From IMG/VR virus record IMGVR_UViG_3300012685_000003, positions 1 to 52,708 of that record: a stretch of DNA of 52,708 nt; one strand, 5' to 3'. Below the pieces are notes generated by a model. The model had not been told where the DNA came from. It ran no database searches and was given only the letters and a program-made list of their open reading frames with translations. Of this stretch, positions 1,546 through 40,204 are shown piece by piece. The position numbers and the translations under genes are program-made. The stretch is from a virus. Each line of letters begins with the position of its first letter. Positions within the stretch are counted from its first letter, which is position 1.

Positions 1546-1561
1546 GTGTCCAAATGGACAC
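1546..1561. promoter_or_regulatory. Operator-like inverted repeat GTGTC-N6-GACAC
   Basis: GTGTC CAAATG GACAC lies 16 bp upstream of the -35 box at 1578. An extra GACAC half-site (1571-1575) almost touches the -35. This is consistent with a regulator acting on that promoter. Confidence 0.65.
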
Positions 1562-1577
1562 TGACAAAATGACACAC

Positions 1578-1606
1578 TTGACTTCCAATTGGGAAAGTGG
1601 TATATT
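1578..1606 (+). promoter_or_regulatory. Strong sigma70-type promoter
   Basis: TTGACT (1578-1583), a 17-nt spacer and TATATT (1601-1606) make a near-consensus promoter; transcription would start near 1613. Upstream are two GTGTC/GACAC dyads and a half-site. The transcript would carry a two-codon minigene, a 10-bp hairpin, a tRNA-like element, a second structured element and then the gene at 1904. Confidence 0.75.
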
Positions 1607-1643
1607 AGCAGGTTCACATTCTGTCCAACAATTGGAGGGAGCT

Positions 1644-1652
1644 ATGCGGTAA
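1644..1652 (+). other. Two-codon minigene (ATG CGG TAA) with strong ribosome-binding site
   Basis: GGAGGG at 1634-1639 stands at ideal spacing before ATG-CGG-TAA. The stop codon opens the 10-bp hairpin 1650-1679. Such start-sense-stop minigenes are known from phage lambda bar RNA, where they jam translation by releasing peptidyl-tRNA. Whether this one is translated is inferred. Confidence 0.45.
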
Positions 1653-1679
1653 ACTACTAACTTTTAATGTAGTAGTTTA
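1650..1679 (+). other. Perfect 10-bp RNA hairpin in the 1613 leader
   Basis: TAAACTACTA (1650-1659) pairs completely with TAGTAGTTTA (1670-1679) around a 10-nt loop. It overlaps the stop codon of the minigene and has no T-run behind it, so it looks like a leader structure, not a terminator. Confidence 0.65.
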
Positions 1680-1709
1680 ATTGTGTAGTCAATTGTGTAG
1701 CGAACAAGG

Positions 1710-1795
1710 TGCCTAGGCTATTCTAGATAGCTGAGCCAGTAGGCTAACCAATGCTTTTGCCTCACTGGTCATAGGTGCAAATCCTATCTAGGCAA
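1710..1795 (+). ncRNA. tRNA-like element 1, abnormal anticodon arm
   Basis: The acceptor stem TGCCTAG/CTAGGCA (1710-1716/1788-1794) is a perfect 7 bp, and a T-arm ATAGG-TGCAAAT-CCTAT (1771-1787) joins it correctly. The rest is not a normal tRNA. A 5-bp hairpin GCTAT/ATAGC stands where the D-arm should be, without GG in the loop. The anticodon-position stem GCCAGT/ACTGGT encloses 23 nt instead of 7. The T-loop has G where pseudouridine 55 is expected. It is probably not a decoding tRNA. Confidence 0.55.
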
Positions 1796-1797
1796 TT

Positions 1798-1875
1798 AGG
1801 TTAGCTAGAGTGATAGGGTAGGCTGCGCGTTATGAGAATGGCTATAACGTTAGATGCCAAACCGCTAGCTAACCT
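1798..1875 (+). ncRNA. Structured RNA element closed by an 11-bp stem
   Basis: AGGTTAGCTAG (1798-1808) pairs perfectly with CTAGCTAACCT (1865-1875). Inside, CGTTAT pairs with ATAACG around gagaatggct. A T-rich stretch follows (1876-1885), then the ribosome-binding site of the gene at 1904. It lies 2 nt after tRNA-like element 1. It could be a cis-acting leader, an attenuator or a processing signal. Confidence 0.5.
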
Positions 1876-1903
1876 TTCATTTTTCAATGGAGGTTAACGC
1901 AAA

Positions 1904-2113
1904 ATGACAATTTGGCGCAGAACATGCCAAGAATGTGGACACAAGCAATACGATAATGACCCTACAGGAATGAATGCAACTAGCTTCGGACGATTTCAAG
2001 ATAGAAAATGCAAAAAGTGTAAGAGTGAAGCACTAGACTATGGAACAGAGGAGATAACAGATAAACAGAAAGATGAAAACGCTAGATTAGAGTTAGAGGA
2101 GCTAGAACAATGA
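1904..2113 (+). CDS. Small zinc-ribbon protein, 69 aa
   Basis: Two Cys pairs, CQEC at residues 8-11 and CKKC at about 36-39, make a probable four-Cys zinc ribbon; the C-terminal third is a charged helix ending in Glu/Leu repeats. The start has a strong GGAGG site 10 nt upstream. The stop overlaps the next start (ATGA), so the two genes are probably co-translated. Zinc ribbons of this size often bind DNA, RNA or protein partners; the partner is unknown. Confidence 0.7.
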   Translation: MTIWRRTCQECGHKQYDNDPTGMNATSFGRFQDRKCKKCKSEALDYGTEEITDKQKDENARLELEELEQ

Positions 2114-2712
2114 ACGAAGTTACTTACAAGATGATTGATGATGTAACTCAACGTATAGCTTATAAATTGGGTAAGGAATACGGGCTAATTGACAGAGATT
2201 TCGTTATCAAGTTCTGGCCCGTTAGAAAATTCGACTACGTTATCAAGTCTGGCGGAGTTATTCGAGTGTATTTCACTCACACTCCAAAGTTTGTAGAATA
2301 TGAGACAATGTTAAGGCGCTGCTTACAACAAGTAGCCCTTATCAAGAAAAATAAGAAAACAGGAATCATCGTTTATGGTTCAGATAAGTTAATGAACGAT
2401 GAATTGCACAAGTTAGCACCAGAATGGGAACAGTTACCAGTTCTATTACCATTTGACCAGTTGAGATTTACAACAGAATATAAAGTTAGCATGACTCATC
2501 GTAAAACTGGTCTCACTGTTGTGAAAGAGGGACACATTGGGAAGAACGGTAAAACTATCCCAAGGTTAATGATAGACGCAAGATTAGAGCTAAGTGACCT
2601 AGTAAGTGCATTAGAGAAGGCTAGAGCTGAGGTAGAAAAAGATAAAGTGTTAGAATTAGATAGTGAGAGATTGAAATTAGCCAACTATGGTGACAGTGAG
2701 AGTGAACACTAA
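2110..2712 (+). CDS. Unknown 200-aa protein
   Basis: I do not recognise it. It has a mixed alpha/beta N-terminal part (residues 1-140) with many aromatic and basic residues, and an acidic, helical, probably coiled-coil C-terminus (about 160-200, many Glu/Leu/Lys). There are no cysteine clusters, Walker motifs or membrane segments. It starts inside the stop of the zinc-ribbon gene (ATGA), which suggests a functional pair. Confidence 0.7.
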   Translation: MNEVTYKMIDDVTQRIAYKLGKEYGLIDRDFVIKFWPVRKFDYVIKSGGVIRVYFTHTPKFVEYETMLRRCLQQVALIKKNKKTGIIVYGSDKLMNDELHKLAPEWEQLPVLLPFDQLRFTTEYKVSMTHRKTGLTVVKEGHIGKNGKTIPRLMIDARLELSDLVSALEKARAEVEKDKVLELDSERLKLANYGDSESEH

Positions 2713-2742
2713 ACGCGAGAAAGGAATTAGTGGTTAGTTAGT

Positions 2743-2952
2743 ATGTTGAACATTAACGATAGTGTTTATGCTTTTGCTAGTAGGGAAAGTAGCGACGTTT
2801 ACGACGGGCGTCCGTGTTCTGTTCCTGTAGATAGAGGATACGTAACTCGCTTGCACGATGATTACATAGAAATGTTTAGTTTAATTAACAAGCGTAAAGA
2901 ATGGTACAAGAGAGATAGAGTAGTAAGTGCTAAGAAGTTAAATACAGTTTAA
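2743..2952 (+). CDS. Unknown 69-aa protein
   Basis: This is a short basic protein with alternating hydrophobic and charged residues (predicted beta-rich, possibly SH3-like), from its pattern only. The nearest Shine-Dalgarno-like sequence (AAGGA) lies about 17 nt upstream, so the start is not certain. It is the last gene before the hairpin and two tRNA-like elements at 2961-3166. Confidence 0.55.
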   Translation: MLNINDSVYAFASRESSDVYDGRPCSVPVDRGYVTRLHDDYIEMFSLINKRKEWYKRDRVVSAKKLNTV

Positions 2953-2960
2953 GTCAGGTT

Positions 2961-2991
2961 CTCACTTAGTTCCTGTGAAGTAAAAAGTGAG
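2961..2991 (+). other. 7-bp hairpin before tRNA-like element 2
   Basis: CTCACTT (2961-2967) pairs with AAGTGAG (2985-2991) around 17 nt. It sits 4 nt ahead of the tRNA-like element at 2996, in the gap after the gene ending at 2952. It could be a processing or pausing signal. Confidence 0.4.
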
Positions 2992-2995
2992 TGAT

Positions 2996-3088
2996 TAGCT
3001 AGCCTCGTACGAGGCAATTGGACCTAACCGGCTACCCACTCTACGTGGCCCGTTGTTAGGGTGTAAGGTTCGAGTCCTTACTAGCTAA
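2996..3088 (+). ncRNA. tRNA-like element 2, abnormal anticodon arm
   Basis: The acceptor stem is a perfect 7 bp (TAGCTAG 2996-3002 with CTAGCTA 3081-3087). A standard T-arm, TAAGG-TTCGAGT-CCTTA (3064-3080), is correctly placed. Where the D-arm should start there is a palindromic hairpin CCTC-GTAC-GAGG (3003-3014), then CAATTGGA. The next stem CCTAAC/GTTAGG (3023-3028/3055-3060) closes a 26-nt loop with an inner CCAC/GTGG hairpin. No proper 7-nt anticodon loop can be drawn. Confidence 0.6.
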
Positions 3089-3090
3089 CT

Positions 3091-3166
3091 ATAGCGTCGC
3101 TGGCACGGTTGCCTACTTGTCTTATTAGACTAAGTAGCTTAATGGGTTCGAGTCCCTGACGCTATA
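3091..3166 (+). ncRNA. tRNA-like element 3, abnormal anticodon arm
   Basis: It begins 2 nt after element 2. The acceptor is ATAGCGT/ACGCTAT (7 bp), the T-loop TTCGAGT has only a 3-bp GGG/CCC stem, and GGC-ACGGTT-GCC resembles a short D-arm. The anticodon-position hairpin CTACTT/AAGTAG closes a 13-nt loop which itself folds as GTC-TTATTA-GAC, giving a long rod without a 7-nt loop. Total length is 76 nt, as for a normal tRNA. Confidence 0.6.
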
Positions 3167-3209
3167 ATCGTTTTATTGTAAAGTAACCTTAACATTATCG
3201 TAAGGGGAT

Positions 3210-5351
3210 ATGTCACAAGATGAGATAGAGAAGATACGAGCGAGAGAGGAGTTTATAACTCGCGAGCTAGCACAGTTAAAGTTAAATAGAGAAGCGTTAG
3301 AGTTAAAGTTAAAGAGTGAATTAAATGTAGTGATAACCGCAAACTCAGTTTCAGAGGGTGCGGTTATTTTGGCTATTAGTGATGTTAGAGATGACATTCT
3401 GGATATTCTAAGGAAAACGCCCGGCAGATTTTTCCGTTACCAGAACAATTTACCCGTTAATGAGATTCCTTTAGAGAGCTGGAAGAACTTTCATAGTGAG
3501 CTAATAAAGCTCCCAAAAATCGACTTCGCATTTAAAGATGGAACTAAAGAGAAGATAGATAGCGTGCTAAACGCTCCACGTTGGACCATTGCTATATCAG
3601 AAAACAAAAAATGGTTAGATGTAAAGCTAGGATATAAAGTTAGTCCTAATCCGTTAAGCTATAACACAGTAGGAACAACTTTTCACAATGCTAGCCAAAC
3701 CTACCGTGTTCAACTCACGGAAGGTGTTAAGTTATGGCGGGCATTAGAGAAAGAAGAACAAGTAATTTGGAGTGACGAAGCTAAGGATATGATACTATCT
3801 GATATTGAACGTAGAGAGAGGTTAGATAGTATCGCACTCAAGACAGATTCACCTAGTTATGGTAGTTTGATTAACTTTAAAGATGAAAAGGTTAAGTTAA
3901 GAGGATTCCAAGAAGTTGGCGTAGAATTCGCTGAAGCAGCTAACGACAGCTTGATACTAGCTGACCAAATGGGACTAGGTAAAACTATTCAGAAGATAGC
4001 TAGTTTCATGTTACTAGATGCAAAGTTAAATGGTAACGCTCGAATGGCCGTAATTTGTCCAGCTAGCGTCAAGATTAACTGGATGAGAGAAATAGAAAGG
4101 TTAACTGGAATAGTGCCCGGCGTATTCTCAGGGAGTGAGCCAGGAGTACGTGATTTAGAGAGATTAGTAGTTAGTAAGTCAGACAAGATTTGCATATTTA
4201 ACTATGACATACTAGCAAGAGTTAAGGATACATTCAAGAGTGTTAAGGATGAACACGGTAATGAGTTTAGACAAGATGTTGTCAAGCGTTATCTATGGGT
4301 GGATTTGATTAACGCAAGTAACTTCGATACAATTGCAGTTGACGAAGCACACTATATAAAGAATACCGATAGTCAGCGTTCGGTAGCAGTAAGAATGTTA
4401 AAGTGTCCTAGGATAACATTTATGACGGGCACTCCCGTATTGAACAGACCCGGTGAACTCTGGCCAATGCTTACGATGTTAGCGCCAGATTTGTTTCCAA
4501 GTGAGGAGAGATTCCTAAGTAGATATACCTTTAACAACAAAGAAGCTAGAAACGTGGAAGAACTAAGGGGATTAGTTAAGCCTTATCTATTGCGCCGTAG
4601 GAAGAAAGATGTAATGAAAGATTTACCGGCTATTGAGCGTATTACAGACTACCATGAAATGAGTCCCAAAGCTTGGAAGTTATACGAGAAGATATTACAA
4701 GGTGTCTATATAGCGTTAGACGCATGGAATCCGGGTCAAGCTGGCGCCGAACAACGTGTGCCTAACATCTTAGCTCAAATAATGAGATTGAAGCAAGTTT
4801 GCGCAATTGATAAACTTGATAGAGTAGCTGAACTCGCTACAGAGTTATACGACACACATGAGAACGGAGGAGCTAGTAAGGTAATAGTGTTCTCTCAATT
4901 CAAGCCAATTGCACATGGTATTCACAAGAGACTAGGTAATGAGAGTGTTGTATTAACTGGTGATGTTAGCGGTGAAGGTGAGAGGCAGAAAATTGTAGAT
5001 GAATTTCAAAATAACCCAAATGTTCATTTCCTTTGTGGAACATGGCAAGTAATGGGGGAGGGCCGTAATTTAACAGCAGCGGGCTACGTGATATTTAGTG
5101 ACCTATTCTGGACCCCAGCTAACCACCAACAGTGTGAGGAGAGATGCTACGGTAGAGTTGGAGATATGCATGGTGCTACATCATATTATGTAGTGGTAAA
5201 GGATACGATTGAAGATTGGATTCAAGACATACTAGCGCGTAAGTTGAGAGTAATTGAACAAGTTGTAGAGGGATATGATAGTGATAGAACAGTTAGTATC
5301 GCAAGCGAATTGTTAAGTAAGATGAAAAATGAAATGAGAAAGGGAAGATAA
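3210..5351 (+). CDS. SNF2-family DNA helicase/translocase
   Basis: This 713-residue superfamily 2 ATPase of the SWI2/SNF2 type would translocate on DNA for replication, repair or recombination. Motif I is DQMGLGKT (about 252-259), motif II is DEAH (about 377-380), motif III is TGTP, and the C-terminal lobe ends with the SNF2-like motif VI region QQCEERCYGRVG (about 641-652). The first 35 residues form a charged coiled coil. The layout recalls SMARCAL1-like annealing helicases, but I see no accessory HARP domain. The start follows AAGGGG with good spacing. It heads the replication operon; its stop overlaps the next ATG by one base. Confidence 0.93.
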   Translation: MSQDEIEKIRAREEFITRELAQLKLNREALELKLKSELNVVITANSVSEGAVILAISDVRDDILDILRKTPGRFFRYQNNLPVNEIPLESWKNFHSELIKLPKIDFAFKDGTKEKIDSVLNAPRWTIAISENKKWLDVKLGYKVSPNPLSYNTVGTTFHNASQTYRVQLTEGVKLWRALEKEEQVIWSDEAKDMILSDIERRERLDSIALKTDSPSYGSLINFKDEKVKLRGFQEVGVEFAEAANDSLILADQMGLGKTIQKIASFMLLDAKLNGNARMAVICPASVKINWMREIERLTGIVPGVFSGSEPGVRDLERLVVSKSDKICIFNYDILARVKDTFKSVKDEHGNEFRQDVVKRYLWVDLINASNFDTIAVDEAHYIKNTDSQRSVAVRMLKCPRITFMTGTPVLNRPGELWPMLTMLAPDLFPSEERFLSRYTFNNKEARNVEELRGLVKPYLLRRRKKDVMKDLPAIERITDYHEMSPKAWKLYEKILQGVYIALDAWNPGQAGAEQRVPNILAQIMRLKQVCAIDKLDRVAELATELYDTHENGGASKVIVFSQFKPIAHGIHKRLGNESVVLTGDVSGEGERQKIVDEFQNNPNVHFLCGTWQVMGEGRNLTAAGYVIFSDLFWTPANHQQCEERCYGRVGDMHGATSYYVVVKDTIEDWIQDILARKLRVIEQVVEGYDSDRTVSIASELLSKMKNEMRKGR

Positions 5352-5512
5352 TGCCAGAACAAAAAGATTTATCAACACCTAGTGACTGGTCCGACGAAGA
5401 ATTAGTTAGAAAGATGCGAAGAATTAGAGATGATTTCTTTATGAGAGGTGAGGATGAAGATAAGGTAATGGTAGAAGCAATGGATAGAATTATTGCTAGG
5501 AGTAAACAGTGA
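5351..5512 (+). CDS. Small 53-aa helical protein
   Basis: It starts on the last base of the helicase stop (TAATG) and stops inside the next start (GTGA), so it is translationally coupled on both sides. The 53 residues are highly charged (Asp/Glu/Arg) and helical, with no known motif. Its place directly after the helicase suggests a helicase-associated role, by position only. Confidence 0.6.
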   Translation: MPEQKDLSTPSDWSDEELVRKMRRIRDDFFMRGEDEDKVMVEAMDRIIARSKQ

Positions 5513-5796
5513 CAAGTAACAACACTCAAGCTGTATTAGGATTAGCTAAGTTAGAGTCCAAACTTGGTGAATACGCCACAGTTAAGATAGCACGCAAAAC
5601 TGGATTAATATTCCTAGCATGGCAACATGGCTTCTGGTCACAATGGCACATTGCATTAAGAAACGATCTATCTAAGTTAAAGTGTAAAGATGTGCCCGGT
5701 AAGAAAGACCTCGTACAAACCAGTGATAGAGTTAAATTCGCAGATATTTGTAACAATTGTTTAATGAACTTGGGAAGGGAATTGGTTAGCAAGTGA
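5509..5796 (+). CDS. Unknown 95-aa protein
   Basis: A GTG start overlaps the upstream stop (GTGA). The protein is basic and contains a Cys-x2-Cys pair near the C-terminus (CNNC, about 83-86) and another Cys at about 64, so a small metal site is possible. The central segment is rich in Trp/His. No family is recognised. Confidence 0.65.
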   Translation: MTSNNTQAVLGLAKLESKLGEYATVKIARKTGLIFLAWQHGFWSQWHIALRNDLSKLKCKDVPGKKDLVQTSDRVKFADICNNCLMNLGRELVSK

Positions 5797-5798
5797 AA

Positions 5799-5972
5799 AT
5801 GACTAACAAAAAAGAATACCTAGGTGATGGTGTCTATGCTGAAAATGATGATTATCACATTATCCTTAGCACAGATCGTGAAGGGCGAACAGAGAGAATT
5901 TATTTAGATGATTATGTTTATGAGGCGCTTATTGCATTTGTTAATAGAGAGAAAGGAAATATAAAAAGATGA
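5799..5972 (+). CDS. Small phage protein of the DGVYAE type, 57 aa
   Basis: The N-terminal pattern YLGDGVYAEND-YHIILST resembles a widespread small phage protein that begins GDGVYAEFDG and ends in a short helix (here LDDYVYEALIAFV). That family has no known function. It could also start at the GTG at 5793. It overlaps its downstream neighbour by ATGA. Confidence 0.7.
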   Translation: MTNKKEYLGDGVYAENDDYHIILSTDREGRTERIYLDDYVYEALIAFVNREKGNIKR

Positions 5973-6148
5973 ACAACGACCACACACCGAAAGCTAAAGA
6001 ACCTTGGGAGTTAGGTACTAAGATAAGTGGAGTAGATTTTGCATTCCAACCAACTCCACCCAATATCTTAACTAGAGATAAACGACGTGAAAAGAGAAAG
6101 TTAACTAAGCTAGAAACAATGAGGAAAAGAGGATTGTTACAAGAATGA
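5969..6148 (+). CDS. Small basic protein, 59 aa
   Basis: Both ends overlap their neighbours by ATGA. The first half is polar with PTPP; the second half is a strongly basic helix (Lys/Arg-rich, about 36-56), suggesting nucleic-acid binding. Function is unknown. Confidence 0.6.
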   Translation: MNNDHTPKAKEPWELGTKISGVDFAFQPTPPNILTRDKRREKRKLTKLETMRKRGLLQE

Positions 6149-6258
6149 AAAATATTTATTACGCTATTAAAGGATTTTGGATTCAGTTCAGAAATAGTTT
6201 TAAATACTTATTCAAAGAGTGGATAGAAGTAGGAAAACGTGGTTACGATGATAGATAA
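6145..6258 (+). CDS. Small 37-aa peptide
   Basis: It starts at an ATGA overlap. It is rich in aromatic and basic residues (Phe, Tyr, Trp, Lys) in an amphipathic pattern that could associate with membranes. It overlaps the next frame. It may be functional or only a coupling device. Confidence 0.45.
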   Translation: MKNIYYAIKGFWIQFRNSFKYLFKEWIEVGKRGYDDR

Positions 6259-6448
6259 AATGGCCTCATCTCATCGTCGCATGTTGTTAAAACAAGCTGC
6301 AAGCGGTGAACGTGAGCTAGCAAGCGATGTAATAGCGAGAATAGCACTTGACGAGATTGCTGAGTTAGACGATCAAATTACAATACTGAAAACTGAACAA
6401 GCCGCTTCACTCAAGTTGTATAGATCAACAACTACAATGAAAGGTTAA
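6239..6448 (+). CDS. Small 69-aa helical protein
   Basis: The GTG at 6239 has AGGA 5 nt upstream; ATG codons at 6248 and 6260 are alternatives. The protein is helical: a heptad-like hydrophobic pattern from about residue 20 to 58 suggests a short coiled coil. The family is not recognised. Confidence 0.55.
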   Translation: MVTMIDKMASSHRRMLLKQAASGERELASDVIARIALDEIAELDDQITILKTEQAASLKLYRSTTTMKG

Positions 6449-6460
6449 GGTGTTAACAAG

Positions 6461-6790
6461 ATGCCTCGTCAAGATGTAACGAAACTCCTATCTAGCACCA
6501 TAAAAGAATTCGCAACATTTAAGGATGAAGATGTTAGAGATGGTCTACTCAATGTGCTAGAAGCATTAGATACAGATTTAGAAGCTATTGAGTATGGACA
6601 AAGTGACGAAGTTAATGATAAGATGGCGTTGTTATTTGCAGCTAATGGAGATGCTAGAGAGAATGAAGATATTGAAGAACAGCCCGCCGTAGCTAAGAAG
6701 AACGTTAAAGAGGAAGATGAAGATGAGGAACCAGAGTTAGATGATGAGGAAGATGAGGATGAACCAGAAGATAAGGATGAAGAAGAATAA
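6461..6790 (+). CDS. Protein with long acidic C-terminal tail, 109 aa
   Basis: The N-terminal about 70 residues are helical (LLSSTIKEFATF..., LLNVLEALDTDLEAIEYG). The last about 35 residues are almost entirely Glu and Asp. Acidic tails of this kind occur in phage ssDNA-binding proteins, where they recruit partners, and in DNA mimics; no OB-fold is evident here. The opposite strand gives a serine-rich open frame that is only its shadow. It is followed by a tRNA-like element. Confidence 0.65.
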   Translation: MPRQDVTKLLSSTIKEFATFKDEDVRDGLLNVLEALDTDLEAIEYGQSDEVNDKMALLFAANGDARENEDIEEQPAVAKKNVKEEDEDEEPELDDEEDEDEPEDKDEEE

Positions 6791-6807
6791 TATCTAAGCA
6801 GTAAGGT

Positions 6808-6898
6808 AGCCCGTCGTTTAATTGGCAAGACTTACACAACGCTGGAGAGCCTTTAAATCCGATTGTGTGAATCTAAGGTTCGAACCCTTAGCGGGCAA
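6808..6898 (+). ncRNA. tRNA-like element 4, enlarged anticodon loop
   Basis: GCCCGT (6809-6814) pairs with GCGGGC (6891-6896), including one G-U. The D-arm GTTT-AATTGGCA-AGAC and T-arm TAAGG-TTCGAAC-CCTTA are good. The anticodon stem TTACACAA/TTGTGTGA (6832-6839/6863-6870) is 8 bp and closes a 23-nt loop with an internal GCT-GGAG-AGC hairpin. The variable region has only 3 nt, so a class II arm does not explain the extra bases. The loop would need about 16-22 nt removed to be normal. Confidence 0.65.
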
Positions 6899-6900
6899 TT

Positions 6901-7059
6901 ATGATAACACCGATAGATATTGAACTACCAAATGGTGAAACAGTTCGTATTGAGCAATTACAAGGAATGGATGAAAATACACTTGCCATTCATTCGTATG
7001 CAAATATTACAATAACTCCACACGCATTCAATTTTATCTCAATAAAGGTTGAAAGATAA
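6901..7059 (+). CDS. Small 52-aa beta-rich protein
   Basis: The ATG lies 2 nt after the discriminator base of tRNA-like element 4 and has no Shine-Dalgarno sequence. If the element is cut by RNase Z, the mRNA would be nearly leaderless. The residues alternate hydrophobic and polar (beta strands), with no known motif. Its stop overlaps the next ATG (TAATG). Confidence 0.6.
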   Translation: MITPIDIELPNGETVRIEQLQGMDENTLAIHSYANITITPHAFNFISIKVER

Positions 7060-7911: not shown

Positions 7912-8390
7912 TGGGAGACTTCCACAAGTGGCAACAACAAGTAAGAGAGTGGGAACGCGATGAAAGCAAGAAACGTGAAGGTTGGTGGAATGTTCATTCT
8001 AGTGGTAGCACTGGTAGGACTTACAATCTTACAAACGTTAAGATTAGAGTCTGCGCTAAATGCGGAACAAGAGATGGAAGAATACATAGACACCACAAGG
8101 GTCACGAATACTTGTGGGCAAGACTATTACCATCCAGATATGCCGCTCGTTACATTACTTTTAACAAAGATGATGTAGTATTCCTATGTGACAAGAATAA
8201 ATGTCACTTGAAAATTCACAAGTTATACGGCCCAAGGTTAAAAGAACTATGGCCACTACTAGAGAAACAAAACGGTGGAATTACATTTGAACAAGCTGAG
8301 AGGTTTAGATTAAAACTTGTGAGATGTTGTAATAACTGGCTAAAGAGAAAGAAGAATGTTAAGAGAGTATACAGGAGGAAAGCTAGTTGA
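7911..8390 (+). CDS. HNH endonuclease
   Basis: The zinc/HNH core is visible: CAKC (about 48-51), HRHHKGH (about 58-64), then CDKNKCHLKIH (about 93-103). This is the betabetaalpha-metal nuclease arrangement (Cys-x2-Cys, HH, Cys...CH-x2-IH). Substrate could be host DNA, packaging intermediates or homing sites. The N-terminus is Trp-rich and charged; the C-terminus is very basic (KRKKNVKRVYRRK), suiting DNA contact. It starts one base into the upstream stop (TAATG). Confidence 0.8.
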   Translation: MGDFHKWQQQVREWERDESKKREGWWNVHSSGSTGRTYNLTNVKIRVCAKCGTRDGRIHRHHKGHEYLWARLLPSRYAARYITFNKDDVVFLCDKNKCHLKIHKLYGPRLKELWPLLEKQNGGITFEQAERFRLKLVRCCNNWLKRKKNVKRVYRRKAS

Positions 8391-9761: not shown

Positions 9762-10676
9762 GTGGAAATAATCCAAGCACCCATTAAAAAGTTCATGACT
9801 AAATATGAGCGTTATGAGCCTCGCATACGTGACCATACAGCCCTAATAACAGCTAAAACTTGTTTAAGAAAATATTTCCTGAGTATAGTGTTAGGGTTCC
9901 GCCCGAAGAAAACTAAACAATACTTTGCGTTCGGTGCAGCTTATCATCATTTCAGGGAGATATTACAAAAGAGTAATGGTGATGTTCAAGTTGCACTAGG
10001 AAGTGTAATCAAGTATTGGGCTAAGAATGGAACTGAACCACAGCCCGGTACCCAGTACGACTTCTTAACTGGTGGTAGACTACTAGCAAGTTGTAATGTT
10101 GCCTACCAACACATAAAAAAGATCGAATTAACTGGCCAAATTCAAATACTCCAAGCGGAACAAGTGTTCCAGGTAATGTTATCTGATGGAAAAACAGCAA
10201 TCGGTGGTCGTGCAGATCAAATTGTTAGATGGAATGGTAAGTTGTGGGGAGTTGATTTCAAAACTTCGTCAAAGATGGGACAATTCTACGAGCGTACACT
10301 CGAACCAAATAATCAGTTTACTCTCTACACTCTTGCAGAATCAAAACTTCATGGTGAGCGTGTTCTTGGACAACGAGTTGAGGTATTGTATAACACTAAA
10401 AAAGAAGGACCAAAGATAGTTACGTTAATGACTCAACGTACAGAAGATCAATTGCTACGTTGGGAACAAGAAACAATTTGGTTTGAGAATAATATATTAA
10501 GTAAATGTAGGGATGAAGATATGTATCCAATGGAAGAATCACAATGTCCATTTTGTCCATTCCACAGTGTATGTAAGCAACCTACCGAAGGTGCAATGAT
10601 GGCTCAGTTGGAAACTCATTTCACACAGGTTCCTTGGGATTATTCACAACCAAGTGGAGAGGAGGTTAGTGAATGA
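9762..10676 (+). CDS. Cas4/RecB-like PD-(D/E)XK exonuclease with Fe-S cluster
   Basis: 304 residues. Nuclease motifs are visible: GGRADQIV (motif II Asp, about 147-154), GVDFKTSS (motif III D-x-K, about 163-170) and a QxxxY-like NQFTLY. One Cys at 34 (AKTCLRKYF) and three at about 262-271 (CPFCPFHSVC) match the four-Cys iron-sulfur staple of Cas4 and AddB nucleases. It probably resects DNA ends for recombination with the Sak4-like ATPase encoded nearby. The GTG start is weakly supported; the Met at residue 12 is an alternative. There is no CRISPR context, so it is not an adaptation enzyme here. Confidence 0.88.
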   Translation: MEIIQAPIKKFMTKYERYEPRIRDHTALITAKTCLRKYFLSIVLGFRPKKTKQYFAFGAAYHHFREILQKSNGDVQVALGSVIKYWAKNGTEPQPGTQYDFLTGGRLLASCNVAYQHIKKIELTGQIQILQAEQVFQVMLSDGKTAIGGRADQIVRWNGKLWGVDFKTSSKMGQFYERTLEPNNQFTLYTLAESKLHGERVLGQRVEVLYNTKKEGPKIVTLMTQRTEDQLLRWEQETIWFENNILSKCRDEDMYPMEESQCPFCPFHSVCKQPTEGAMMAQLETHFTQVPWDYSQPSGEEVSE

Positions 10677-11011
10677 GCTTTAGATTACGTCCCATTAGCG
10701 ATAAAATTGTAATAGAACAATTTAGCGCAGAAGATGTTTCAAAAGGTGGTATTATTATTCCTGACACGAATAAGGATAAACCACTTGTAGGAAAAGTGTT
10801 AGCAGTTGGTCCTGGTAGATACTCAGAAGTATTAACAGAAGGCGATAATTTTATACCAATGGTAGTTAAAGAAGGTGAGATAGTATTCTTTGGCAGATTC
10901 GCAGGTGTTCATATTGAGTTAGATGGTAAAGAATATTTAGTAGTCCGTCAGGACGACGTGTTAGTAATCGACGATAACTATGGAGGAAAAAGTGGACTCA
11001 AAGCCAAATGA
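10673..11011 (+). CDS. GroES-type co-chaperonin
   Basis: 112 residues with clear GroES features: LRPISDKIVIEQF at the N-terminus, the mobile loop KGGIIIPDT (about 23-31), the AVGPGRY turn (about 45-51), and FFGRFAGVHIELDGKEYLVVRQDDVLVI at the C-terminus. It would cap host GroEL, probably to fold the capsid or another phage protein, as T4 gp31 does. It is about 15 residues longer than E. coli GroES through the TEGDNFIPMV insertion and a C-terminal tail. It overlaps the nuclease stop by ATGA. Confidence 0.95.
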   Translation: MSFRLRPISDKIVIEQFSAEDVSKGGIIIPDTNKDKPLVGKVLAVGPGRYSEVLTEGDNFIPMVVKEGEIVFFGRFAGVHIELDGKEYLVVRQDDVLVIDDNYGGKSGLKAK

Positions 11012-14125: not shown

Positions 14126-14207
14126 GCCCTCATGGTGAAACTGGCAAACACATGGCGCTTAAGACGCCACGGCGAAAGCCTTGGAGGTTCGAGTCCTCTT
14201 GAGGGCA
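14126..14207 (+). tRNA. tRNA-Leu (UAA anticodon)
   Basis: This is a complete class II cloverleaf of 82 nt: acceptor GCCCTCA/TGAGGGC, D-arm GTG-AAACTGGCAAA-CAC, anticodon stem TGGCG/CGCCA with loop CTTAAGA (anticodon TAA), a long variable arm CGGCGAAAGCC and T-loop TTCGAGT. The discriminator is A, as expected for Leu. No encoded CCA. In an AT-rich genome UUA Leu codons are frequent, so it can supplement the host pool. The next gene starts 2 nt after it. Confidence 0.95.
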
Positions 14208-14208
14208 T

Positions 14209-14544
14209 ATGAGTAAATCGACAACTTGGATTCATCCTTCTGGAAGTAAACTTACTATCACTTACGCGGAGCCACAAATGCCAAGAGAAAAGAGATTAAA
14301 GAGTAAGCCCTCTATAAAAGTTAACAAGACTTATGCTGATCCGAAGATAGTAGAAGATTTAAGAGTTCCAGCACCAATGTCACCACCTCCAGTTAACACA
14401 TTCGGAGTTGAGCCAACTAACTATCACGCCCGTCGTATAGTTTCACTTGGAGCAGCCAGGTTAATTGAAGCAGCAGAGGAATATGAAACATTAGCAAGAT
14501 TATTAAGGAATACTGCTAACACTTTAAATAGAGTTCATGAGTAA
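14209..14544 (+). CDS. Unknown 111-aa protein
   Basis: The ATG lies 1 nt after the discriminator of tRNA-Leu; the only SD-like bases (GAGGG) are inside the acceptor stem. Processing of the tRNA would leave an almost leaderless mRNA. The protein is polar with a Pro-rich centre (PAPMSPPPVN) and a C-terminal helix. The family is not recognised. Confidence 0.6.
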   Translation: MSKSTTWIHPSGSKLTITYAEPQMPREKRLKSKPSIKVNKTYADPKIVEDLRVPAPMSPPPVNTFGVEPTNYHARRIVSLGAARLIEAAEEYETLARLLRNTANTLNRVHE

Positions 14545-15051: not shown

Positions 15052-15521
15052 TAAGGTTGCCTCCTAGAAAGGTCGCTTGCACGCCACTTTTCGACACACT
15101 TAAATATGGTTCATTACATATTCCAGAAACAGCTAGAGAAAGAGTCGATCAAGGAATTATCAAATATCAAGGTGTAAATTGTAAATGGACAGGAATAGGA
15201 GACCATGTTACCTTCTCAGGATACACTGGAACTTTATTGTCCCTTGAGGGAGAAGGATTACTTATCGTATTACCTGAAGAATTTGTTGTCGGAGTTATCG
15301 AATATGACTCAACTGATGTTGCGAGAATTGAAATCCCCGGATTGTTTTTTAAAGGAACAGATGGAGAAACATTTAGTGCTACATATGAAATGGCCGTTAA
15401 TCTATTGGCTAAAGGAATAGAAGATAGCACAGTATGGAGTAAGTTAACTGGTGATAAGCATAGGAAGTGGAAAATCCACGAACAGAGACCAAAGGTTAGC
15501 GATTATGATAGGTTACGATAG
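15048..15521 (+). CDS. Divergent GroES-like protein with C-terminal extension
   Basis: 157 residues. Residues about 12-85 follow the GroES pattern: PLFDTLKYGSLHIPETARERVDQGIIKYQGV, then GIGDHVTFSGYTGTLLSLEGEGLLIVLPEEFVVGVIE, which parallels [33 protein letters not shown] in order and spacing. The mobile-loop hydrophobics are SLHI in place of GIVL. A C-terminal extension of about 70 residues (100-157) is not GroES-like. It may form a mixed ring with the GroES at 10673 or have a separate client. The polymerase gene starts on its last base (TAGTG). Confidence 0.65.
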   Translation: MIRLPPRKVACTPLFDTLKYGSLHIPETARERVDQGIIKYQGVNCKWTGIGDHVTFSGYTGTLLSLEGEGLLIVLPEEFVVGVIEYDSTDVARIEIPGLFFKGTDGETFSATYEMAVNLLAKGIEDSTVWSKLTGDKHRKWKIHEQRPKVSDYDRLR

Positions 15522-17284
15522 TGACGACAAATATCTCTACTAAATTTGTACCTTCCGAGGGTGACCCATCTCGTAATATATGGTTTATTGGAGAAGCCCC
15601 CGGAGCAGATGAGGAGACAGGAACATTAAATCATCCTGCTCCTGGTCCATTTATAGGTGAAAGTGGGTCAGTAATATTTACACCATGTTTATTACGTAAC
15701 GGTCTCCCACGACCTGACAGTGTATTCGTTACTAATCTATCTCATCATAGACCTAAAGATAACAAGTTTGAATATCTAATTGGAAGTAAAGAGTTAGCAG
15801 ATGGTATCAATGAAATTAAAGAGTTAATTATTAAAAACAAGCCCGTTGTAATCTGTACGTTAGGTAATTGGCCAATGTATTTCATTACAGGTAAGAAAGG
15901 TAAGAAGCCAGGTTCAGGTATATTAAATTGGCGTGGTTCCATATTACAACATGAAAGTGGTATAAAGGTAATTCCAACAATCCACCCCGCAGCAGTCTAC
16001 CGTGATCGTAAACTCTATCCAATCTTTGACCAGGACATTAAACGTGTTGTATTCGATTCGTCGTTTAGGGACCTTAAGTTACCAGAACGTAAATTCACAA
16101 TCGCCCCTGTGGGTGATGAACTTGAGCATTACACTCAGGTTCTCCTCAAAAGTGATAAGCTGGCAGTTGACATTGAGACCTTTGGCCCAAATATTGGTTG
16201 TGTTGGTTTTAGTAATGATCCTTCTATGGGCGTTTGTATTGTAAATGATAACACTCCTCAATTTAGGGATAGTGTAGATAGATTACTATTGAGTGATATT
16301 CCTAAGATACTACACTTTGGTGTGTTCGATAAAGCCATTCTTAAGTTACATGGCTTCAGTGTTAATAACTATTGGTGGGACAACCAAGTAGCTCAATGTG
16401 TGATGTGGCCAGAGTTACCGCGAGCTCATAAATATTTAGTGAGTACGTATACCCGCGAGCCATATTACAAGAATGAAGCAAAAGAAGGTGGCGGAGATAA
16501 AAAGAGTTGGGGGAAACGTACAGACAGAACTAAACTATGGATATATAATTGTAAGGATGATGCTACAGAGTATGAAGTTCAAGAGTGCCAAGAAAAAGAA
16601 ATGAATGAAGGTCCACCTAACTGGAAGAAATTTTTCAATTTCTCTATGGAAATGTTAGAAGTAGCTGAGCACATATCAGAGTCAGGTATGTTGGTGGATC
16701 AAGATAGGAGAGGGTTATTGGAGCTTGCAGTAACATATAAATATGCTAAGAATCAAGACTTATTAGAAAGATTAACTCACGTTGGTTTCAATGATAACTC
16801 TCATCCACAAGTTCATAAGATGTTATATGAAACTCTTAAACTTCCAGTCCACAAAACTCGTCAGAGTAAAGTTACTGCCGATGAAGATGCATTAATAGCT
16901 CTGATTGCGCTTTGTAAAGAGAAAATTGGAACTATCAGACGAGAGAAAGAACTAGCTGAATGGCAAACTAAATTTCTAATTGTCAAGATGATAATGTTAA
17001 TTAGAGGTCATAGAAAGCTATTATCTAGCTATTTGAGAGCTAAGATAAGTGCTGACGGGCGAATTAGGAGCACGTATAAAGTGCCCGCCACTGAAACTGG
17101 AAGATGGAGCGCAGAAAAGTATGTAGATGGTACAGGTGTTAATGGCCAAACATTCCCTAGAGACTATGTGGAGCTACCACCAGAGAGTGAGCTAAAGGAG
17201 TTTCGGGCTATAACACTTGATATTGCTAACGAAAGTGAAAGTGATAAAGAGGAAGAAGATGATGAGCAAGAGGAAGTAGCATAA
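15521..17284 (+). CDS. DNA polymerase family A, N-terminal half, fused to uracil-DNA glycosylase and 3'-5' exonuclease domains
   Basis: 587 residues. Residues 1-185 are a family 4/5 uracil-DNA glycosylase-like domain (GEAPG 24-28, TNLSHHRP 71-78, HPAA 155-158). Residues about 205-370 are a DnaQ-type proofreading exonuclease (DIET 217-220, HFGVFD 265-270, YNCKDD 342-347). The remainder is the pol I thumb/palm start, up to TETGRWS and VNGQTFPRD (about 524-545). The catalytic palm is missing; it is encoded separately at 18186. After the break point comes a foreign-looking, acidic tail (DKEEEDDEQEE). GTG start overlapping the upstream stop. The two halves must associate to make an active enzyme. 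Confidence 0.9.
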   Translation: MTTNISTKFVPSEGDPSRNIWFIGEAPGADEETGTLNHPAPGPFIGESGSVIFTPCLLRNGLPRPDSVFVTNLSHHRPKDNKFEYLIGSKELADGINEIKELIIKNKPVVICTLGNWPMYFITGKKGKKPGSGILNWRGSILQHESGIKVIPTIHPAAVYRDRKLYPIFDQDIKRVVFDSSFRDLKLPERKFTIAPVGDELEHYTQVLLKSDKLAVDIETFGPNIGCVGFSNDPSMGVCIVNDNTPQFRDSVDRLLLSDIPKILHFGVFDKAILKLHGFSVNNYWWDNQVAQCVMWPELPRAHKYLVSTYTREPYYKNEAKEGGGDKKSWGKRTDRTKLWIYNCKDDATEYEVQECQEKEMNEGPPNWKKFFNFSMEMLEVAEHISESGMLVDQDRRGLLELAVTYKYAKNQDLLERLTHVGFNDNSHPQVHKMLYETLKLPVHKTRQSKVTADEDALIALIALCKEKIGTIRREKELAEWQTKFLIVKMIMLIRGHRKLLSSYLRAKISADGRIRSTYKVPATETGRWSAEKYVDGTGVNGQTFPRDYVELPPESELKEFRAITLDIANESESDKEEEDDEQEEVA

Positions 17285-17302
17285 CTTAAACAAGGATAAT
17301 AT

Positions 17303-18091
17303 ATGTACGATTATGTTCTTTATCATGATAATTGTTATGATGGATTTGGTTCAGCCCTAGTTGCCTGGTTAAAATTAGGTGATAACGCTAAGTATATTCC
17401 AGTCAATTATGGACAATATCCTCCAGACTTACCAAAAGGAAGCAAGGTTTTAATTTGTGATTTCTCATATCCACGTGAACAGCTACTTAATTTTGCATTA
17501 GACCACGAGGTTCAAGTATTAGATCATCATAAGACAGCACAAGCAGCACTAGAAGGAATTCCATACGCAACGTTTGACATGAATCACTCTGGAGCATACT
17601 TAACGTGGAAACATTTTTATCCAGAGTCTGATGTTCCTGAATTTATTTTATATTTAGAAGATCGTGATTTATGGACATTTAGACTTCCAGGTAGTCGTGG
17701 TGTGTCTCAAGCTTTGCGGGCTTATCCGTTTGATTTTAATGTATGGAATTCGTTGATGTATGATGTAGAACAGTTACGCCAAGAAGGTCCAGTTATAGAA
17801 CGCTTTACACAGCAAATGGTTAACTTGATGTGTGATAACTCTTTTGAGAAAGTTATAGGTGGACACTTAGTTCCAGTAGCAAATGCAACAGTTTTCTTTT
17901 CAGAAGTAGGTGAAGAACTATGTATTCGTAATCCAAATGCTCCATTTGCTGCTTACTATTTAGATAGAAAAGATGGTAAACGTCAGTGGGGATTACGCTC
18001 AAGAGGAGGATTTGATTGCTCAGAAGTTGCTAAGAAACTAGGTGGTGGAGGCCATCCAGGTGCAGCAGGATTCGTTGAAGAATTAAAATGA
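17303..18091 (+). CDS. DHH/DHHA1 phosphoesterase (NrnB-like)
   Basis: 262 residues. DHH superfamily motifs: HDNCYDGFGSA (about 9-19), CDFSYP (about 51-56), DHH (about 77-79) and the DHHA1 signature GGGGHPGAAGF (about 247-257). Such enzymes (RecJ, NrnA/NrnB) degrade short oligonucleotides or cyclic dinucleotides using two metal ions. At this size it resembles oligoribonuclease/NrnB types, not RecJ. It lies between the two halves of the DNA polymerase, with its own AAGGAT ribosome-binding site, so it could process primers or nanoRNAs, or counter cyclic-oligonucleotide defence signalling (inference). Confidence 0.9.
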   Translation: MYDYVLYHDNCYDGFGSALVAWLKLGDNAKYIPVNYGQYPPDLPKGSKVLICDFSYPREQLLNFALDHEVQVLDHHKTAQAALEGIPYATFDMNHSGAYLTWKHFYPESDVPEFILYLEDRDLWTFRLPGSRGVSQALRAYPFDFNVWNSLMYDVEQLRQEGPVIERFTQQMVNLMCDNSFEKVIGGHLVPVANATVFFSEVGEELCIRNPNAPFAAYYLDRKDGKRQWGLRSRGGFDCSEVAKKLGGGGHPGAAGFVEELK

Positions 18092-18204
18092 AACTTCGGA
18101 TGAAAGTAAGCACAATGTTACTAATTTGTGCTATCATCATAACCGAGATTTATAACGAAATGTTCATTAAACTTGTGAGACACTTGTGGCAATTGATCAA
18201 TTAA
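18088..18204 (+). CDS. Small membrane peptide, 38 aa, between the polymerase halves
   Basis: It starts at an ATGA overlap with the DHH gene. Basic start (KLRMKVS), one hydrophobic stretch (TMLLICAIIITEI), then basic/aromatic. It ends 19 nt inside the polymerase C-half frame, so its translation may couple the phosphoesterase to the GTG start at 18186. Confidence 0.5.
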   Translation: MKLRMKVSTMLLICAIIITEIYNEMFIKLVRHLWQLIN

Positions 18205-18992
18205 AGATTAGAAGTATGATAGTAGCTCCAAAAGGTAAATTACTCATTAGTATTGATCTAGCTCAAGCCGAAGCCTGGGTGGTAGCGTTCTTAGCCAATG
18301 AACCCACTATGAAGAACTCTTTGTTACATGGAGATATTCACAGAGACACAGCAGCATACTTAGACAACTGTAAACCCGAAGATGTTACGCCCACTGGCAG
18401 ATATACAGGTAAGAGATGTAATCACGCCCTAAATTATAGAATGAGTTATCTCCGCCTAGTTCAAGTTGTCAATAAGGAGTCAGATAAACCACCATATGTT
18501 GTACTGTCATATCCACAAGGTAAGAGATTGTTTGAGCGATGGCATCAACTATATAATCTAAAGAACTGGTGGAGTCAAATTGAATACGAACTTGGACAAA
18601 ACGCACGTACATTAACTACGCCATATGGTCGAATTAGAACTTTCTTTGCTGGTTGGGGAAGTGAGCTTTTCAAAGAAGCAACTGCTTATGTCCCACAATC
18701 AACTGTTGCAGACCATCTTAATGGTGCAGTCCAACCTGAACTCGGAATTGAAGGAGGACTACTTGGCGTCTATCGTACTTTTGTTCGAGAACGTCAAGTC
18801 ATCAGAATCATTAATCAATCGCATGATAGTTTTATTTGTGAGTTGGATAAGCAACTTGTTGATGAGATAGCACCACAATTAGTAAATTTAATAAAGCGCC
18901 CGTTAATAGTGAATGGTGAACAATTTACTATCCCCGTTGATTGTGAGATAGGCGAGAGATGGGGACAACTTGATAAATTGAAAGTGAGTTAA
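18186..18992 (+). CDS. DNA polymerase family A, C-terminal catalytic palm/fingers
   Basis: 268 residues. Starts LKIRSMIVAPKGK, exactly where pol I sequences continue after the N-P region. Motif A is SIDLAQAEAW (22-31), motif B GKRCNHALNYRMSY (75-88), motif C QSHDSFICE (211-219). The catalytic Asp residues of A and C are present, but motif C reads HDS instead of the usual HDE. The start is GTG without a strong SD, consistent with coupling to the small overlapping frame upstream. Together with 15521-17284 it makes one complete polymerase. Confidence 0.92.
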   Translation: MAIDQLKIRSMIVAPKGKLLISIDLAQAEAWVVAFLANEPTMKNSLLHGDIHRDTAAYLDNCKPEDVTPTGRYTGKRCNHALNYRMSYLRLVQVVNKESDKPPYVVLSYPQGKRLFERWHQLYNLKNWWSQIEYELGQNARTLTTPYGRIRTFFAGWGSELFKEATAYVPQSTVADHLNGAVQPELGIEGGLLGVYRTFVRERQVIRIINQSHDSFICELDKQLVDEIAPQLVNLIKRPLIVNGEQFTIPVDCEIGERWGQLDKLKVS

Positions 18993-39929: not shown

Positions 39930-40204
39930 TATTTACACTCCGCGTATATGTCTAATGAGTCCTCTGAACCAACTTTATTAATGACAACTTGAACACGGCA
40001 GCGACCATAAACAACTATTGGAACTCCATTAATAGGATGAGAAACTGGTACATTAGTATCCGCTCCCGTGCACTCGATAAGGATTTGCGAGTCCTTATGA
40101 TTGCTACTAATGTACCAGTTTCCCTCTCCTAACGGAACCAGCGGGCCTTTTCCACCTACTAAGTTCCGTGCTCTTGCACCGATCAATAACGGTAACCGAA
40201 CCAT
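39929..40204 (-). CDS. Small virion protein, 91 aa
   Basis: Beta-rich (ILIECTGADTNVPVSHPINGVPIVVYGRCRVQVVINKVG) with three Cys. AAGGAG lies 10 nt before the ATG at 40204 (a TTG two codons earlier is possible). It stands between the decoration-like protein and the adaptor. Probably a head-completion or stabilising protein, by position. Confidence 0.55.
   Translation of the reverse strand: MVRLPLLIGARARNLVGGKGPLVPLGEGNWYISSNHKDSQILIECTGADTNVPVSHPINGVPIVVYGRCRVQVVINKVGSEDSLDIYAECK

Follow-up and report, generated by a model that had tools for sequence, protein, structure and literature searches.

Putative processing elements derived from tRNA architecture, without decoding capacity, in the early operons of a phage family

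The window studied here is the 52,708-nucleotide (nt) IMG/VR virus record IMGVR_UViG_3300012685_000003 (positions 1 to 52,708). It carries four elements resembling transfer RNA (tRNA), named el1 to el4, in each of which the acceptor/T-arm half is sound and the arm at the anticodon position departs from the canonical form. On balance, we consider it probable that they do not decode but serve as tRNA-like processing elements, placed within early polycistronic transcripts of a single family of uncultivated phages. Four tRNA-like elements with anomalous arms had been claimed in an earlier reading of the DNA alone (the original prediction), and a check of sequence and fold found them at the positions given. 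They are listed here with the canonical tRNA of the window and the helicase gene, which served as anchor for finding relatives (bp, base pairs).

1710..1795, + strand: el1; arm 1735-1769 (6 bp closing 23 nt), T-arm 1771-1787, discriminator A1795
2996..3088, + strand: el2; arm 3023-3060 (6 bp closing 26 nt), T-arm 3064-3080
3090..3166, + strand: el3; 9-bp outer stem, arm 3113-3137 (6 bp closing 13 nt), T-hairpin 3144-3156
6809..6897, + strand: el4; canonical D-arm, arm 6832-6870 (8 bp closing 23 nt), T-arm 6873-6891
14126..14207, + strand: canonical tRNA-Leu(TAA), from ARAGORN and Rfam
3210..5351, + strand: helicase gene, downstream of el2 and el3

The fold of el1 (1710-1794 plus A1795) comprises the acceptor TGCCTAG/CTAGGCA, the T-arm ATAGG-TGCAAAT-CCTAT and a 6-bp stem GCCAGT/ACTGGT closing 23 nt. 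In el2 (2996-3087 plus A3088), the acceptor TAGCTAG/CTAGCTA and the T-arm TAAGG-TTCGAGT-CCTTA accompany a 6-bp stem CCTAAC/GTTAGG closing 26 nt, and a D-type AATTGG linker is present in a displaced position. The third element, which ends 44 nt before the helicase gene, pairs through the 9-bp stem TATAGCGTC/GACGCTATA and a 3-bp T-stem, with a 6-bp stem CTACTT/AAGTAG closing 13 nt. The fourth has a canonical D-arm with GG, an 8-bp stem TTACACAA/TTGTGTGA (one G-U pair) closing 23 nt, and the T-loop TTCGAAC. A tRNA-type 7-bp acceptor on a 5-bp T-stem with a TTCRANY-type loop is fully present in el2 and, with the T-loop TGCAAAT, in el1; el3 shows this stack as 9 + 3 bp and el4 with 5-6 acceptor pairs. 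All four arms were as originally described; a small correction concerns the stack of el3, which divides as 9 + 3 rather than 7 + 5. The 5-bp anticodon stem with a 7-nt loop typical of tRNAs is found in none of the four, which have 6-8 bp closing 23, 26, 13 and 23 nt.

ARAGORN, which had been suggested as a check, called none of the four elements, and tRNA-Leu(TAA) was the only tRNA recognized in the window by ARAGORN and Rfam. The Rfam tRNA model (RF00005) matched only el4, below threshold (20.2 bits, gathering threshold 29) and with an insert in the anticodon loop. No non-tRNA Rfam family exceeded its threshold in the window, where the other matches were at chance level, and neither program found a transfer-messenger RNA (tmRNA) there. 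With a strict descriptor, el1, el2 and tRNA-Leu scored at least 17, a value reached 0.05 times per shuffled window. Individually, el3 (descriptor pair score 11.5 of 12) and el4 (9.5 of 12) make a weaker case; el4 is additionally backed by its sub-threshold Rfam match and by a positional counterpart in the relative G066.

Searches with helicase, terminase, capsid and nuclease sequences gathered about 60 related IMG/VR contigs with syntenic gene order, mostly fragments, in which open reading frames (ORFs) are mechanical calls. The window had no near-identity match among 50,697 phage records, a distant search with positions 1560-3210 likewise gave no match, the DNA polymerase used as query in viral contigs recovered no relatives, and a capsid search of GTDB genomes for a prophage or host found none. 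A descriptor requiring a 12-bp stack of acceptor and T-stem with a T-loop (pair score of 11 or more of 12) was applied to 1.19 Mb of family sequence. It matched 22 places that overlap tRNAs called by ARAGORN and another 20 that do not, 14 of the latter with a complete T-loop, against 0-3 matches in shuffled sequence. The same descriptor found 5 tRNAs and 11 other places in 2.29 Mb of unrelated phage loci; most of the latter represent one homologous locus with an incomplete T-loop, and a complete T-loop occurred in only one non-tRNA match. Three weak family candidates (G003 15545, G055 12683, G012 45203) are probably due to chance and were set aside. Pattern matches outside the family (L365, L370, L378 and others) were ordinary tRNAs or chance.

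Across the family, the elements measure roughly 63-113 nt. When its length was allowed to vary, the acceptor/T stack was mostly 12 or 13 bp, as in the tRNAs of the family (the earlier descriptor imposed 12). The stem in the anticodon position ranges from 4 to 15 bp and its loops from 4 to 26 nt, with unrelated sequences; the 4-nt loops are GNRA loops, in two ambiguous elements discussed below. A canonical D-arm with GG occurs in several elements (el4 and those of G004, G065 and G066), and an extra hairpin followed by a GG-containing linker in el2 and in elements of G001, G011, G012, G031, G060 and G064. None of the elements encodes CCA, and isotype calls are absent except for marginal ones in G066 and G065. 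Element interiors are stabler than dinucleotide shuffles (Fisher p 4e-6, n=23). A pseudoknot between a CCC loop and a GGG linker in G060/G064 is excluded by geometry, as 7 bp would have to be spanned by a loop of 1 nt.

Because structural alignment of the elements by MAFFT failed, pairs were counted on four hand-anchored ortholog pairs, which gave 25 two-sided compensatory changes versus 2 broken pairs. The ortholog of el2 lies in the same gap of L002 (814-888), a relative whose helicase is 86% identical; its acceptor is identical, one T-stem pair changes from A-T to G-C, and a new 6-bp stem in the anticodon position closes 12 nt instead of 26, so that the anticodon-stem count is least secure for this pair. 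In the G060/G064 ortholog element, ahead of the same DUF4031 gene, 11 pairs change on both sides and 1 is broken. For el1 and el3, there are no sequence orthologs. Thus, the compensatory changes that the original prediction had proposed to look for do occur in ortholog pairs, the enlarged stem included. Pairing is kept through two-sided changes and canonical tRNAs reside in the same genomes, which bears out the claim that the elements are non-decoding and not products of general decay. They are neither chance structures nor simply decayed ones.

One sub-class is also conserved in its loop. A CGGCCA(U) loop, together with U73 and a covarying stem, is found in G011 (as TGGCCA), G012, G031, G060 and G064, and the G060/G064 orthologs keep CGGCCA throughout the changes just counted; a sixth phage, G065, has the variant TGGCGAT. 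A collection-wide pattern search found no CGGCCA(U) loop in such a fold outside the family. Since this loop is conserved, a payload function is suggested, and the hairpins in the anticodon position of this sub-class probably have a second role, in protein binding, pairing or stability. The proposal of a new RNA family therefore holds in part: this sub-class in five to six phages supports it, whereas the whole set is heterogeneous.

All catalogued tRNAs and tRNA-like elements lie on the helicase strand, which is the early-gene strand, wherever both could be located. The elements are mostly outside ORFs, and as units of tRNA shape they stand between co-oriented genes. Also, real tRNAs and elements replace one another in fixed slots. 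Between the homolog of the ORF at window position 2743 and the helicase gene, G066 has a canonical tRNA(CAT), the window el2 and el3, and G001 one element; upstream of the 7059 homolog, el4 in the window corresponds to a tRNA-like element at 8285-8359 in G066, a colinear relative. An ORF-opening ATG stands 0-5 nt behind 9 of 22 tRNAs (counted by eye, last-base overlaps included; p 1e-7) and 4 of 22 elements (G003 15545 still being one of the 22; p 0.013), for a background of 4%. The DUF4031 gene of G060 and G064 begins 1 nt behind an element and has no Shine-Dalgarno match before its start; this start is secure, as the two proteins agree from their first residue onwards and belong to the DUF4031 family. 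The neighbouring features of the window are the following.

1578..1606, + strand: promoter-like TTGACT-17-TATATT upstream of el1, within a 38-nt block that is 92% conserved in G066
1798..1875, + strand: closed element without T-loop, adjoining el1, with an 11-bp stem AGGTTAGCTAG/CTAGCTAACCT
6901..7059, + strand: 52-amino-acid ORF, its ATG 3 nt behind el4, no Shine-Dalgarno match
14209..14544, + strand: ORF 1 nt behind tRNA-Leu, with a GAGG Shine-Dalgarno-like sequence within the acceptor strand

An early promoter-like TTGAC(A/T)-17-TATATT is conserved in several members of the family (G011, G012, G031, G066). The element at 1798-1875 exemplifies a second closed RNA type of about 70-95 nt, with a 9-15-bp closing stem and no T-loop, found beside tRNA-like elements or in operon leaders; further sites are L002 719-809 and leaders in G012, G031, G060, G064 and G066.

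The original prediction had offered sites for RNase P and RNase Z that split the polycistronic messenger RNA (mRNA) as one possible function. This is the reading that best accommodates co-orientation, the mostly intergenic location, the slots shared with tRNAs and the adjacent starts, and we infer cleavage from these. The elements retain what tRNA-maturation enzymes measure, namely an acceptor/T stack mostly of 12-13 bp, a T-loop and usually an elbow GG. RNase P recognizes the acceptor/T stack irrespective of the remainder (PMC4919913), and the elements should therefore be excised from early mRNA by host enzymes, with RNase P cutting the 5' side and RNase Z the 3' side, where no CCA is encoded. 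Excision would split the early mRNA and create new 5' ends, sometimes 1-3 nt before a start codon, from which near-leaderless translation could proceed. The interchange of tRNAs and elements in fixed slots suggests that excision, not decoding, is the function they share. As decoding would not be required, the anticodon arm would be free for replacement by other hairpins.

Several observations weigh against processing as the explanation. An immediate start codon follows only 4 of the 22 elements, and el1 and el3 precede a normal leader with a Shine-Dalgarno sequence. No element was found in the family genomes G002, G005 and G007. The elements at G012 44127 and G031 14668, kept as ambiguous, overlap a promoter-like TTGACA-17/18-TATTAT, so that their conservation may partly be that of a promoter. 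The ortholog pairs were brought into register manually, from loops or the ends of stems. Finally, processing alone leaves the conserved loop of the sub-class unexplained.

This last point leads to the alternative that we regard as the most plausible, if tentative: natural tRNA-scaffold small RNAs, in which selection would be on the displayed hairpin, acting in trans by pairing or by binding a protein, with the tRNA part there for maturation and stability alone. It would account for a CGGCCA(U) loop kept in five phages, with a variant in a sixth, while the stem covaries, and for interiors stabler than shuffles; the design is also that of the engineered tRNA scaffold (PMC3753655). In G012 and G031, moreover, the element loop has a 9-nt complement in GATGGCCGT, a conserved leader further upstream in its operon (G012 46799 and G031 17866). 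However, this complement is a candidate target only, located where the leader, itself homologous in the two phages, is predicted to be paired; no loop sequence is common to most elements, and the four of the window have four different arms. A combination of both ideas, which we put forward as speculative, is that tRNA genes were turned into a modular device whose interchangeable acceptor/T-arm module, cut out by host RNase P and RNase Z, both divides operons into messages almost without leaders, in the mitochondrial manner, and displays selected trans-acting hairpins such as that with the CGGCCAU loop.

It is unlikely that the elements are in general cis-regulatory leaders or antitermination signals of early operons, through tRNA mimicry read by a protein or a put-like RNA acting on the polymerase. 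Several do lie directly behind conserved promoters in operon leaders, with other closed structures, and for these promoter-proximal cases the idea is possible; many others (el2-el4, G060, G064) are deep within operons, before unrelated genes, and alternate with real tRNAs. Decaying tRNA genes at various stages would be expected in slots that real tRNAs also occupy, and el4 and the elements of G065 and G066 look canonical but for one arm. Nevertheless, we judge this quite improbable, as acceptor and T pairs are intact and change on both sides, most stems in the anticodon position are helices without mismatch and at least 6 bp long, and the sub-class loop persists in phages whose proteins are roughly 40-60% identical. 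Evasion of anticodon nucleases by phage tRNAs, through changes in the anticodon loop, is known (PMC11455837), in line with the earlier suggestion of decoys. Decoys for such nucleases or for tRNA-modifying enzymes are very improbable here, and the nuclease suggestion is not supported, because nothing recognizable as the anticodon loop of a target isotype is found: loops are absent or of 4-26 nt with unrelated sequences. A decoy for T-loop- or acceptor-directed enzymes is conceivable, though likewise improbable. Ordinary decoding tRNAs with introns or unusual folds are hardly credible in spite of the tRNA size and intact T-arm and acceptor, as removal of the insert leaves a 6-11-bp stem and not 5 bp with 7 nt, isotype calls are missing but for the marginal G066 and G065, and known self-splicing introns are longer than the inserts. 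Processing elements thus fit the data better than decay, nuclease decoys or tRNAs with introns.

Other features were noted in the same genomes. The window encodes a GroES (Cpn10) homolog (10673-11011) and a family-A DNA polymerase as two ORFs (15521-18992), the first with a uracil-DNA-glycosylase domain; a DHH/DHHA1 phosphoesterase gene lies between the two. A perfect 18-bp inverted repeat is located in the late region (40041-40122). For the tRNA-Tyr(GTA) genes of G011, G031 and G060, the tRNA-Sec model outscores the tRNA model and is still below threshold. The 28-bp terminal inverted repeat of L002 (1-98 and 3' end) and its GC-rich, foreign-looking 3' end are probably assembly artefacts.

Among known RNAs, the small stable RNAs C and D of phage T4 (species 1 and 2) are made together with tRNAs and are said to have tRNA-like parts, a likeness by description only. 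The tRNA-like domain of tmRNA keeps elbow and acceptor, with a long helix instead of the anticodon arm and a reduced D-arm; unlike tmRNA, the elements have no tag reading frame, are far shorter and are missed by a tmRNA search. The Bacillus cereus pseudo-tRNA (tRNAOther) and bacterial Y RNA (YrlA) are non-decoding tRNA-like RNAs, of which architecture or setting differs from that of the elements. We found no report of such an arrangement in phages in the open papers searched, which does not prove its absence. As standard tRNA finders miss the elements, others may be unannotated. In mitochondria, the ends of mRNAs are set where RNase P and RNase Z excise tRNAs (PMC4394434). The likeness lies in tRNA-shaped units between genes of one strand, with starts close behind some 3' ends; here, in contrast, the units belong to a phage, many of them lack decoding capacity, normal leaders precede most genes and processing is proposed from sequence. 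The tRNA scaffold engineered for recombinant RNA (PMC3753655) likewise keeps acceptor, T- and D-arms and replaces the anticodon arm by another hairpin, whereas the phage elements are natural, bear many different inserts and lie within mRNA operons. If our interpretation is correct, they would be the natural equivalent of this scaffold and, in phages, the equivalent of tRNA punctuation in mitochondria; the supply of processing signals, and not of decoders, would then be another reason for phages to have tRNA genes.

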